The notes under the pieces were generated by a model. It was not told the DNA's origin and searched no databases. It saw nothing but the letters and a program-made list of their open reading frames with translations. Shown piece by piece: positions 16,617 through 22,656 of a stretch of 33,162 nucleotides of DNA. This DNA comes from Actinomycetota bacterium (GTDB taxonomy: Bacteria > Actinomycetota > Thermoleophilia > Solirubrobacterales > 70-9). The translations under genes were made by a program, and so were the position numbers. Every line of letters begins with the position of its first letter. Position 1 is the stretch's first letter. The stretch is taken from the NCBI GenBank assembly GCA_005885405.1, contig VAYN01000009.1, positions 1 through 33,162 on the forward strand, written 5' to 3'.

Positions 16617-16728
16617 GAGGGAGGGGGCGGGTGCCCCTCTCCCAGAGACCGTCGCGCAGCTGGGCGGACTTGAGGGCGCCACTGTGACTTCTTGAGCCTC
16701 TGTGAGAGGGGCACCCGCCCCCTCCTGC
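16617..16728. repeat. REPIN-like inverted repeat element 1
   Basis: Two 31-base arms (16617-16647 and 16698-16728) match in inverted orientation at 28 of 31 positions, with 22 consecutive matches that begin exactly at a GGAG tetranucleotide (16620-16623; CTCC on the right at 16722-16725). The spacer is 50 bases. Each arm is itself partly self-complementary (GGGGC-GGGT-GCCCC). It fills most of the 198-base gap between the nucleotidyltransferase and comF. No U-tract follows, so an ordinary terminator is not supported. See the two related elements at 21142 and 21369. Confidence 0.75.
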
Positions 16729-16813
16729 AAGCCGCAGCTGTGACACGAAGTTGGGCCCGAATCGTTTGATTCTGCGCGCCACGTGTGCGTAATGGCTCGG
16801 CAGGGTTTTTGGC

Positions 16814-17437
16814 ATGGAGTTGTTGCCGACGATTGGGGTGGCGCTGGTGCCGGCGCTTTGTGCTTCTTGCGGGCGCAGCTGTCGTTCGGAGTCGGTGATC
16901 TGCACTCGGTGCTCGCGGCGGCTTGGGGATGCGGAGCCGTTGCTGGGGAAGGGGCCTGCTGGGTTGGACAAGGTTTGGTCTTCGGCCTCCTATGAAGGGG
17001 TGGCGCGGAATCTGGTTGGGGCTTTGAAGTTTCGGCGGTTGCTGCCGGTGGCGGATCTGATGGCGGAGCGGATCGAGTGGATGGCTCCCGCCCACATGCT
17101 GAGCGGGACGATCGTGCCGGTGCCTCCGGCTCCGGCGCGGTTGCGGCGGCGGGGGTTCGATCCGGCCGGCGAGCTGGCCGCTGCTCTGGCGGCACATCTG
17201 GAAGCGCCGCTGTCGCAGTGCCTGGAGCGGCGGGGGAGTGGGCGTCAGGTCGGGCGGCGTCGGGCCGAGCGGGTCGGGCACCCGCCGCGGATTCAGAGCA
17301 AGGGCGCCGCTCCCCGTAGCGTCCTCCTGGTCGACGACGTGCTCACCACCGGGGCCACCCTCACGGCCTGCGCTCGCGCGCTGCGGGCCGTGGGGGCGTC
17401 CCGGGTGGTTGCGGTGACCTTTGCCCGGCGCCTTTAG
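16814..17437 (+). CDS. comF: ComF-family phosphoribosyltransferase-like protein
   Basis: 207 residues. The N-terminal zinc ribbon has Cys16-x2-Cys19 and Cys30-x2-Cys33. The phosphoribosyltransferase domain ends with the PRPP-binding loop VDDVLTTGAT (173-182). IVPVPPAPARLRRRGFDPAGELA is the other ComF hallmark. ComF proteins are needed for DNA uptake in competent bacteria, but many carriers are not known to be competent, so the role is uncertain. Position upstream of hpf, secA and prfB matches the Bacillus order. No strong ribosome-binding site is visible before the ATG. Confidence 0.88.
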   Translation: MELLPTIGVALVPALCASCGRSCRSESVICTRCSRRLGDAEPLLGKGPAGLDKVWSSASYEGVARNLVGALKFRRLLPVADLMAERIEWMAPAHMLSGTIVPVPPAPARLRRRGFDPAGELAAALAAHLEAPLSQCLERRGSGRQVGRRRAERVGHPPRIQSKGAAPRSVLLVDDVLTTGATLTACARALRAVGASRVVAVTFARRL

Positions 17438-17446
17438 TTGGCTCTC

Positions 17447-17464
17447 CGCGGCCCTACGGCCGTG
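17447..17464. terminator. Candidate hairpin at the comF/hpf convergent junction
   Basis: CGCGGCC (17447-17453), loop CTAC, GGCCGTG (17458-17464) gives seven pairs including one G-U. It sits at the 16-base gap between the convergent comF and hpf genes and into the hpf 3' end. There is no U-tract; a bidirectional termination role is inferred from position only. Confidence 0.3.
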
Positions 17465-17813
17465 CCTCGGCCGGGCGGCCTCGCATCTGGTCGACAAGCT
17501 TCCGCGTACGGCTTCGCTTGCGACGCAGTTCTCGGTGCTTCTTCACCTGGCGACCCATGTCCTCGGCGAGCTCGCGGACCGTGTGGGTCATCTCAGGACT
17601 GGACTCGTGCGCGTGCAGAGTTACCCCCTTGAGGTAGAACGTCGCCTCCGCCACCTGGCTGTCGGCGACCCGGGGGTTTTTCTCCTCCGAGAGCACCACC
17701 TCCAAGGTCGCGAGGGGCGAGACCTGGCGTCCCAGCCTGGCGAAGCGTTTCCGCACCATCTCACGCAGGTCATCCGTCATCTCGACGTTCCGGCCCCGAA
17801 TCTCCATCCGCAT
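17454..17813 (-). CDS. hpf: Ribosome hibernation-promoting factor, short form (HPF/YfiA family)
   Basis: 119 residues. The beta-alpha-beta-beta-beta-alpha fold of HPF is recognisable: MEIRGRNVEMTDDLREMVRKRFARL, then VVLSEEKNPRVADSQVAEATFYLKGVTLHAHES, then a basic helix (MGRQVKKHRELRRKRSRTRKL) that contacts 16S rRNA. It binds the small subunit and silences ribosomes in starvation. Only the N-terminal domain and a basic tail are present; the C-terminal dimerisation domain of the long HPF found in most actinobacteria and firmicutes is absent. A perfect AAGGAGG lies 5 bases before the ATG. The gene is divergent from secA, with about 90 bases between them. Confidence 0.9.
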   Translation of the reverse strand: MRMEIRGRNVEMTDDLREMVRKRFARLGRQVSPLATLEVVLSEEKNPRVADSQVAEATFYLKGVTLHAHESSPEMTHTVRELAEDMGRQVKKHRELRRKRSRTRKLVDQMRGRPAEARP

Positions 17814-17891
17814 GAGTGCCTCCTTGTGGGTTCCGTCACGAGGGTAGTACCCCTGGCGCGGGGGAGCAAGAAGAATTTAAGTCGGCACCGC

Positions 17892-17897
17892 TACTCT
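17892..17897 (+). promoter_or_regulatory. Putative -10 element of a leaderless secA transcript
   Basis: TACTCT fits the TANNNT -10 consensus and ends exactly 6 bases before the secA ATG (17904). This spacing puts the transcription start at the A of the start codon. No Shine-Dalgarno sequence precedes secA, consistent with leaderless translation. The same arrangement is seen at prfB and nadC. No clear -35 is visible. Confidence 0.5.
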
Positions 17898-17903
17898 TGA
17901 CCA

Positions 17904-20738
<2,835 letters not shown>

Positions 20739-20744
20739 CGGCGC

Positions 20745-21137
20745 ATGGCTGACCCGGTCCGCGAGTTCGTCCGCGCCTTCAACGAGCGCGACTTGGATGC
20801 GTTTGTCGCCGTCCTCGACCCGGAGGTCGAGCTGCACGCGAGCAGGGGGCTGCGGAAGGGAATCGAGGCAGCGCGGGTGTGGGCGACGCGGGCGCCGGGG
20901 GGCGTTCAGCAGACGATCGAGCTGGAGGACCTCTATGAGGACGGGACCGAGGGAGGCGGCGGCCGGGCGGTGGCGCTGATCCTGCGGCGCTGGCACTGGG
21001 AGGAAGACGAAAGCATCGCCGGCATCGACTTCATGGCCTGGGCCTTCGAGCTCCGCGACCGCAAGATCCTCAGCTGGCGGCCCTACGAGAACCGGGAAGA
21101 GGCGCTGCGCGACTTCCATTTTGCTCGACCCTCGTAG
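20745..21137 (+). CDS. SnoaL-like / NTF2-fold protein of unknown substrate
   Basis: 130 residues with the compact alpha+beta cone typical of SnoaL-like proteins: VREFVRAFNERDLDAFVAVLDPEVELHASRGLRKGIEAARVWATR at the N-terminus and VALILRRWHWE...FMAWAFELRDRKILSWRPYENREEALRDF at the end. The family includes isomerases, hydrolases and non-catalytic binding proteins, so no reaction can be assigned. It starts 6 bases after secA and is probably co-transcribed with it. About 400 non-coding bases follow. Confidence 0.75.
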   Translation: MADPVREFVRAFNERDLDAFVAVLDPEVELHASRGLRKGIEAARVWATRAPGGVQQTIELEDLYEDGTEGGGGRAVALILRRWHWEEDESIAGIDFMAWAFELRDRKILSWRPYENREEALRDFHFARPS

Positions 21138-21141
21138 TTGG

Positions 21142-21262
21142 GGAGGGCGTCGGTGGGGGTCCCCTGGGCGCAGCTCGGCGGGTCGGCGTTCTGTCGCTGG
21201 CGCCCGATCGTGGCTGGCCCGCCTCGTGCTAAGTGCCCAGGAGACCCCCACCGACACCCTCC
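21142..21262. repeat. REPIN-like inverted repeat element 2
   Basis: Arms of 28 bases (21142-21169 and 21235-21262) match inverted at 26 of 28 positions; the spacer is 65 bases. The outer end of the match is exactly GGAG (21142-21145) on the left and CTCC (21259-21262) on the right, and similarity stops beyond it. Each arm contains a GGGGGTCCCC palindrome. The two mismatches would be G-U pairs in an RNA read from the minus strand. It starts 4 bases after the SnoaL-like stop codon. Confidence 0.75.
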
Positions 21263-21293
21263 AGCGAGCGAGCTCCGGCAACTCACTATTCAC

Positions 21294-21338
21294 CGAGTCC
21301 GCGAAAACCATCCCTCAAGAGCCGTTCTCGCGGACTCG
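21294..21338. repeat. Hairpin between the two REPIN-like elements upstream of prfB
   Basis: Arms CGAGTCCGCGAAAAC (21294-21308) and GTTCTCGCGGACTCG (21324-21338) pair at 14 of 15 positions around a 15-base loop. The single mismatch is a G-U pair if transcribed from the minus strand. No U-tract is adjacent on either strand. Function unknown; it sits in the 399-base non-coding stretch before prfB. Confidence 0.6.
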
Positions 21339-21368
21339 ATGAAAAATGAATCTTCAAGACTGTCGCCT

Positions 21369-21486
21369 GGAGGGAGGGGTGTCCCCCCTGGCCGACCGGC
21401 GTCCTGTTCCTCGCCCTATCCACTGCAGAGAGATGCGACGCGCGGGCGAGGAACCCAGGGAGGTCAGGGGGGACACCCCTCCCTCC
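21369..21486. repeat. REPIN-like inverted repeat element 3
   Basis: Perfect 22-base inverted arms (21369-21390 and 21465-21486) start at GGAG and end at CTCC; similarity stops immediately outside. A second perfect 11-base inverted pair lies inside (GTTCCTCGCCC at 21406-21416 and GGGCGAGGAAC at 21444-21454), so the element can fold into one long two-part stem. The arm core GGGGTGTCCCC is itself palindromic. It lies just upstream of the prfB promoter region. Confidence 0.78.
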
Positions 21487-21536: not shown

Positions 21537-22656
21537 ATGGCCGACGCCGCGCAGAGCCAACCCGTAGCGCCCCGCCTGGCCTCCGTCCGGGAGCAGCTGT
21601 CCCTGCTCTCGGACTACCTTTGACCCGGCTGGGCTAGAGGCAGAAGCAGCGCTGCTGGAGGAGGAGATGGGCCGTCCCGGCTTCTGGGACGACCAGGACA
21701 CCGCCGCGCGCACCTCCGCCGCCCACGCCCGCGCTCAGCGGCGGCTGGAGACGTTCCGCGGGCTCGAGCGTGACGTCGCCGATCTCGATGACCTCGCCGA
21801 GATGGCAGCCGAGGACGAGGAAATGGCCACCGAGCTGGACTCGCAGCTGGCCTCGGTCGAGCGCCGGCTGGCCGAGCTCGAGGAGGCGCGTCTGTTCAGT
21901 GGCGAGTACGACAGCGGCGACGCCGTCGTCACCGTCCACGCCGGCGCCGGCGGTACCGACTCCCAGGACTGGGCCGAGATCCTCCTGCGGATGTACCTGC
22001 GCTGGGCCGAACGCCGCGGCTTCGGAGTCGAGATGGTCGAGGCTTCGCCGGGGGAGGAGGCGGGGCTCAAGTCCGCCACCTTCATCGCCCGCGGCGAGAA
22101 CGCCTACGGGCTCTTCGCCGCCGAGCGCGGCGTCCATCGACTGGTGCGGATCTCGCCCTTCGACTCCTCCGCCCGCCGCCACACCAGCTTCGCCCAGGTC
22201 GATGTCGGCCCGGTGGTCGAGGACAGCGTCGAGGTGGAGATCGACGAGGGCGACCTGCGGATCGACACTTACCGCGCCTCTGGCGCCGGCGGCCAGCACG
22301 TCAACAAGACCGACTCCGCGGTCCGCATCACCCACCTTCCCACCAACGTCGTCGTCCAGTGCCAGAACGAGCGCTCGCAGACGCAGAACAAGGCGGTCGC
22401 GATGCAGCTGCTGCGCTCGAAGCTGATCGAGCTGGAGGAGCGCAAACGTTCCGAAGAGCTGGCCAAGGCGCGGGGCGAGGTCAAAGACGTCGCCTGGGGC
22501 TCGCAGATCCGCAGCTACGTGCTGCACCCCTACACGATGGTCAAGGACCACCGCACCGAGCACGAGGTCGGCGACGTGCAGCGGGTCCTCGACGGCGACA
22601 TCGACGAGTTCATCCGCGACTACCTGAATAAGACCGCGGCGGCCTCGGCCAACTAA
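21537..22656 (+). CDS. prfB: Peptide chain release factor 2, expressed by programmed +1 frameshift
   Basis: The first frame runs from ATG 21537 through 28 codons ending SLLSDYL, then an in-frame TGA at 21621-21623. A +1 shift at CTT-TGA-C continues at GAC 21622 to the TAA at 22654-22656, giving 28 + 344 = 372 residues, close to E. coli RF2 (365). In the shifted product the peptide-anticodon motif SPF is at 206-208 and the catalytic GGQ at 251-253, almost the same numbers as in E. coli. That supports the shift and the upstream start. SPF marks RF2, which reads UGA and UAA. Starting instead at 21667 would remove the first 43 residues. The stop overlaps the next ATG (TAATG). Confidence 0.95.
21615..21624 (+). 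promoter_or_regulatory. prfB +1 frameshift site (autoregulatory)
   Basis: TAC-CTT-TGA-C: the canonical slippery codon CUU, the stop UGA and the following C are all present. RF2 scarcity lets the ribosome slip from CUU to UUU, so RF2 controls its own synthesis. The E. coli stimulatory sequence AGGGGG three bases upstream is replaced by TCGGAC, so a strong internal Shine-Dalgarno is absent. Confidence 0.9.

Follow-up and report, generated by a model that had tools for sequence, protein, structure and literature searches.

Three Inverted Repeats at the Locus

The DNA analysed here is a stretch of 33,162 nucleotides (the window), corresponding to positions 1-33162 of contig C3 (VAYN01000009.1) in the draft genome G000 (2.61 Mb in 30 contigs, 93% complete). 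It contains three palindromic elements, E1, E2 and E3 (Table 1). E1 separates what we take, from the sequence, to be a sugar nucleotidyltransferase-like gene and comF, and the E2-E3 pair lies between genes that we presume, on the same grounds, to be an NTF2-like gene and prfB. Comparison with copies elsewhere in this genome and in its relatives reveals that conservation in these elements is reversed: their cores are constant, and their stems are hypervariable yet almost perfectly self-complementary.

The three inverted repeats, first described in a sequence-only reading of the window, are confirmed as real and far from chance. They are at the top of the 23 inverted repeats of the window, where a repeat search gave arms of 28 nt with 96% complementarity for E1, arms of 28 nt with 93% for E2, and, for E3, arms of 34 nt (21369-21402/21453-21486) with 85%, the outer 22 positions being perfect. 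Six predicted RNA folds of E1-E3 (both strands, with short flanks) have z values of -5.9 to -8.6, and 0 of 200 dinucleotide shuffles were equally stable. A census of 825,247 bases of G000 with a single inverted-repeat threshold yielded 33 inverted repeats, five of which are runs of N; the remaining 28 compare with 5 in one third-order Markov simulation, in which N was not excluded. A plasmid search with E1 gave no match.

Table 1. Positions of the elements in the window and, in the last row, of a palindrome at fetched loci of congeners
Feature	Position	Strand	Remarks
E1, family A	16620..16725	+	arms 16620-16647 / 16698-16725; 22 aligned members
Conserved family A core, begins ACCGTCGCGCAGCTGGG	16648..16697	+	core motif common to 22 members, arms unlike
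E2, family B	21142..21262	+	arms 21142-21169 / 21235-21262
Conserved family B core, GCAGCTCGGCGGG...CCCGCCTCGTGCTAAGT	21170..21234	+	
Spacer of E2-E3 composite	21263..21368	.	small palindrome ~21289-21343, GAGTCCGCGAAAAC...GTTCTCGCGGACTC
E3, family C	21369..21486	+	arms 21369-21390 / 21465-21486
Conserved family C core, GCCGACCGGCGTCCTG...GAACCCAGGGAGGT	21391..21464	+	
Composite B-spacer-C	21142..21486	+	homologous copies elsewhere in G000
Palindrome GTTGAYGGGCCGAAAA ... TTTTCGGCCC	L317 1958-2008, L319 1959-2007, L320 1456-1504, L327 1959-2007		in pabB-like genes

Constant Cores and Variable Stems

The hairpins were sorted into types according to their inter-arm sequence: A (E1), B (E2), C (E3), D, F, the core of which approximates a shortened B core, G, with the loop AACAGCGGGGAGG, P, with the loop TAC.TGC, and Q, found in other species, with a loop of about CACAGCCTGCC. 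The 27-base core is identical in the four F copies of G000, and their arms agree at 18-26 of 27 positions. In the case of family A, the members of which were chosen by the core motif, 141 of 615 stem-pair cells are changed on both sides and 1 on one side, and the covariation score is 0.587, as compared to 0.156 after shuffling and at most 0.153 with the partner arm slid. No repetitive extragenic palindromic (REP) sequence conserved in both arms across copies was found in this family, 26 of the 30 stem pairs of which show changes on both sides. The corresponding numbers are 71 and 0 for the 296 cells of the B/F alignment, and 24 and 1 for the 165 cells of family C. When the three alignments are pooled, 236 of 1,076 cells are changed on both sides and only two, both G-U, on one side. 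Neither the pairing percentage nor the covariation score of A, B/F or C was reached by any of 500 shuffles, and both drop when the partner arm is slid. The alignment of G elements, which mixes two stem registers and contains one misaligned row, was left out of these pair counts.

As a control, 29 tRNAs from the same stretches have 46 G-T among 656 pairs, as drawn by ARAGORN. Selection of members by the core motif in the collected sequence gave 47 matches, 32 with and 15 without arms; after removal of two likely chance matches, the 30 remaining armed elements have 4 G-T among 720 pairs. Similarly, 9 of eleven G elements picked by the loop alone have 22-23 Watson-Crick pairs of 23; of the other two, one has 14 pairs (3 G-T) and one is register-shifted (13). 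In family A, 27 of the 37 unpaired cells belong to just three core-proximal pairs (columns 24, 25 and 30).

At sites shared between species, stems can be compared copy by copy. A P hairpin in the linker of a pabB-like gene (24 pairs) shows 6 paired and 2 single changes. In an fbiC-like gene, 3 of the 27 pairs of the F hairpin show a paired and 1 a single change between G000 and G009, the latter genome having two broken pairs. The G hairpins of this gene differ by 4 paired versus 0 single changes of 19 between G006 and G002, and by 8 versus 0 of 19 between G006 and G003; the G core of G003 is inverted relative to that of the two others. These counts are compatible with stems that changed where they stand.

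Families and Their Distribution

The hairpins are confirmed as dispersed and diverse families in one Solirubrobacterales-like genus of uncultured bacteria, as the sequence-only reading had anticipated. Neither of the two outcomes that would have spoken against that reading, arms confined to this locus or hairpins conserved at the same loci, was observed. The flank counts below draw on 125 distinct hairpins, collected from G000, G009 and further loci; of these, 83 were classed, and part of the 42 unclassed ones resemble ordinary terminators or coding palindromes. Full-length homologs of the composite are present in G000 at C29:173131-173473 (88%) and C23:37705-38007 (79%), and the small palindrome of its spacer is also found elsewhere without B or C. 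Whole A elements form inverted pairs, 98-108 bp apart, in G006, G007 and G010.

A covariance model of family A was run with strict filters. At E <= 1e-4, the search of the taxonomic family had matches in 14 of 50 genomes, distributed over the own genus (9), genus g9 (2) and g11 (3, with one match each); at E <= 1e-6, the search of the order had matches in 10 of 232, which belong to the own genus (8) and g9 (2). In either run, a part of the matches repeat a listed one on the opposite strand or correspond to an F element. The model found no family A match in G009, although prfB, comF and fbiC all identify this genome as the nearest relative. A scan of a contig collection with the A core motif found inverted arms in 9 stretches among the matches listed (80 of 106 stretches). 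Eight of them are in metagenome-assembled genomes labelled Solirubrobacterales, Thermoleophilia or Actinomycetota, and the remaining one (L183, Streptomyces) is probably a chance match. The motif CTGTCGC occurs within 14 bases of the hairpins in 8 of 250 flanks, as compared to 0.2 after shuffling, and is restricted to some families. In G003, small clustered repeats AGCTTCCGTGG adjoin a partial A element (L103 1380-1500).

Presence and Absence between Relatives

The elements are not conserved in the comF and prfB upstream gaps of congeners, where the sequence-only reading had suggested a comparison for precise presence or absence. In the 493-1150 bases read upstream of prfB, the composite is absent in 11 of 11 congeners. 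In 10 of them no inverted repeat passed the threshold applied, and the one of G008, located 499-641 bases ahead of prfB, is unlike the composite. The prfB sites of G009 and G010 should be regarded as hairpin-less rather than as clean empty sites, because other coding-like sequence directly precedes prfB there. Within prfB, the motif CTTTGAC at window 21618-21624 is a likely programmed-frameshift site; all 12 genomes of the genus have the surrounding leader. Among the genomes with a comF match (10 congeners compared), E1 is present only in G000, and the 420 bases upstream of comF contain no hairpin in 9 of the congeners and a different one in 1. The 800 bases after comF (L284-L291) carry hairpins of other families in 8 of 10 congeners. 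Some have loops of about CACAGCCTGCC, and others are palindromes without a loop, built around GACCCTGCCATGGCAGGGTC and dissimilar in their outer arms.

Further differences were found between G000 and G009. The composite at C23:37705-38007 is absent in G009, which has 27 bp instead, and one F element of G000 is likewise absent there. Conversely, G000 lacks two G elements that G009 has, one at window 25894/25895 and one in L046. At the former site, directly after the stop codon of a nadC-like gene, G009 has a 65-bp G-type hairpin and TACGACAGT. In one intergenic gap, the C element of G000 has a D element as its counterpart in G009, and one further site contains the whole composite in G000 and the small palindrome alone in G009, a difference that may reflect either gain or loss. 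No target duplication was seen by eye at two sites compared between the two genomes. A derivation of the arms from the target was also considered; it was not seen by eye at the compared sites. Since congeners lack the elements at the same sites, these elements behave as mobile, and their dispersed copies with presence or absence between close relatives are what characterises mobile palindromic repeats in the broad sense.

Copies inside Genes

Rickettsia palindromic elements (RPE) are palindromic insertions kept inside protein genes. In-frame insertions of this kind were also found in G000, where 5 of 32 hand-listed hairpins lie, with no internal stop, inside gene calls that are heuristic and that missed the gene left of E1; none of 22 A-D elements does. 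Two of the five are G elements, one in a glycosyltransferase and the other in an FAD/FeS protein; the remaining three are an unclassed hairpin in a NifU-MnmA fusion, a P element in the pabB-like protein, and an F element in the fbiC/cofGH-like protein, named fbiC from its sequence. According to a Pfam scan of the first four genes, the copy precedes the domains in the glycosyltransferase and is interdomain in the NifU-MnmA, pabB-like and FAD/FeS proteins.

The fbiC and pabB-like hairpins are both common to G000 and G009, and the latter is confined to these two genomes. At the fbiC hinge, 10 genomes with a match comprise two with an F core, four with a G core, and four with no hairpin detected, one of which has masked bases there. 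The pabB-like genes of four congeners contain another small palindrome (Table 1, last row), the outer arms of which are alike and the inner part variable.

Origin of the Hairpins and Alternative Explanations

Our comparison of genome sequences documents that the elements are dispersed, differ in presence from one sister species to the next, form composites, occur in frame within genes, and covary with hardly any wobble pairs. With some reservation, we favour the view that these are small non-autonomous mobile hairpin families, each with a constant core and a copy-specific stem of about 20-30 bp, in which one arm would repeatedly be copied from the other in DNA. One route might be replication template switching, with the nascent strand folded on itself, and another a hairpin intermediate formed while the element moves; either would pass a change in a single arm on to its partner. 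The constant core would then serve a mobilising factor as its recognition sequence in single-stranded DNA. Template switching of this kind would proceed outward from the loop, leaving inner mismatches and perfecting the outer stem, and most of the unpaired cells of family A lie near the core, as such copying would leave them. Homogenisation of arms and inversion of the spacer are known results of template switching, as described in PMC8604942.

The near-absence of wobble pairs bears on whether the hairpins may instead be structured RNAs, i.e., regulatory hairpins or terminators maintained by selection on pairing in the transcript. Their very stable folds, strong covariation and mostly intergenic position would fit this explanation. 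Selection on RNA pairing, though, would leave many wobble pairs, as in the tRNAs of the same genomes, and covariation including such pairs was not found, which makes copying of arms at the DNA level the simplest reading. Moreover, no Rfam family was found in the window at the gathering score, no T-run stands directly beside E1, E2 or E3, the elements differ between sister species, and copies occur within coding linkers. We therefore regard selected RNA structure as improbable.

The sequence-only reading had interpreted the elements as REPINs, inverted pairs of REP sequences with a GGAG or GTAG tag, mobilised by a RAYT, i.e., a Y1 transposase. The arms are indeed inverted, and the A elements at times form inverted pairs. 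The arms of E1-E3 begin with GGAG, but only 17 of the 70 arms counted (families A-D, F and G) do, so that GGAG is no fixed boundary. GTAG stands right next to several copies of B, C, D and F; over all 250 flanks, unclassed hairpins included, it is near chance, being found within 14 bases in 15, as compared to 11.1 after shuffling (7 directly adjacent), and as a foot tag of general occurrence it was dropped. The suggestion that each arm is itself a G-run/C-run hairpin gave a mixed picture: GGG-N0-5-CCC is present in 40 of 70 arms versus 7.5 after shuffling, and the folding of single arms is weak overall (mean z -0.40; p<=0.05 in 15 of 70). The stems are not conserved either. Enzymes were searched for with the profiles PF01797, PF00078 (RVT_1) and TIGR02249. 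PF01797, the RAYT profile, matched 7 of 61 genomes overall and none of the 12 of the genus, G000 (the 93% complete draft) and 11 congeners, and mobilisation by a RAYT appears very unlikely. A reverse transcriptase route was also dropped: RVT_1 matched 2 of 12 genomes of the genus and not G000.

Inverted ends, species-specific insertions and composites would also be expected of ordinary miniature inverted-repeat transposable elements (MITEs) moved by a DDE transposase. The ends of one MITE family should match, whereas here they vary from copy to copy, and this, together with the target sites described above, renders MITEs rather unlikely. Constant unpaired motifs combined with variable stems resemble the logic of attC sites, which are folded single-stranded and used by an integron integrase. 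However, the hairpins have a scattered distribution, with no sign of a cassette array. TIGR02249 gave no match over the cut-off in 12 genomes, a search that had no positive control, because all 14 control genomes likewise gave weaker matches only. Such an origin seems highly improbable.

A further possibility, which we consider doubtful but worth stating, is that the selfish unit is the loop: short constant cores would invade the loops of palindromes already present, or take the place of these loops, and template switching at the host replication fork would rebuild and diversify the stem, with no need for a dedicated transposase. Hints in this direction are the fbiC hinge, where two species have an F and four others a G core, a hairpin with matching flanks and the same arms but different loops in G000 and G009 (L041 17452, L297 1713), and an F copy, recognised by eye, within the loop of a terminator-like palindrome that in G009 has no F.

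Several points weigh against mobile families with DNA-level copying of arms, the reading favoured here. No enzyme was found with the profiles searched, and mobility is deduced from draft genomes. Selection for a perfect hairpin in single-stranded DNA could likewise result in few G-T pairs, and template switching alone leaves the origin of new arms and the spread of the cores unexplained. The number of pair types in B/F is not unusual (193 of 500 shuffles), and the shuffling and sliding controls leave the relatedness of members in place. Most members were found by pairing, which introduces a bias against mismatched copies; the count by core motif lessens this bias but does not remove it, because many loci had been fetched by similarity. 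Finally, the copies at shared sites may have been replaced rather than changed in place.

Relation to Known Systems

The in-gene copies resemble RPE in being palindromic and differ from them in that here the loop is constant among the in-frame copies of one family and the arms are dissimilar; the phylum is also different. RPE are mentioned in PMC3733652, which describes REP/REPIN and the GTAG- and CGTC-tagged repeats; these are likewise short, dispersed, often inverted dimers and in some cases located in genes. The stems published there are of 5-13 bp (GTAG) and 8-9 bp (CGTC), as compared to the hypervariable ones of about 20-30 bp here. The stem sequence helps to define a REP family, the opposite of the present case, where the core between the arms is conserved. 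According to the same source, GTAG REP families have RAYT genes, unlike the genus studied here, in which none was found, and the CGTC superfamily has no dedicated transposase either.

The repetitive hairpins of sponge mitochondria and the GC clusters of yeast mitochondria are similarly dispersed, GC-rich and thought to be mobile by an unsettled mechanism, but, according to PMC2800124 and PMC4478555, their stems are conserved and their loops more variable, the reverse of what we found. Template-switch mutation at inverted repeats produces the same homogenised arms, paired changes and spacer inversion; it has been described, in PMC8604942 and PMC8794818, for yeast coding genes and RNA genes, and here it would act on whole dispersed families. 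Perfect inverted repeats inside coding genes are reported for mitochondria of Nematomorpha (PMC6649704). We recognised no published description of the present hairpin families in literature searches, subscription papers being beyond their reach.

Mobile palindromic repeats as such are already known; what sets the present elements apart is the combination of apparent mobility with reversed conservation, as the published mobile hairpins compared here keep their stems and vary their loops. The many dispersed copies, some of them at sites shared by sister species, constitute a natural assay of palindrome perfection over evolution. They also carry a warning that strong covariation without wobble pairs need not mean a selected RNA structure.
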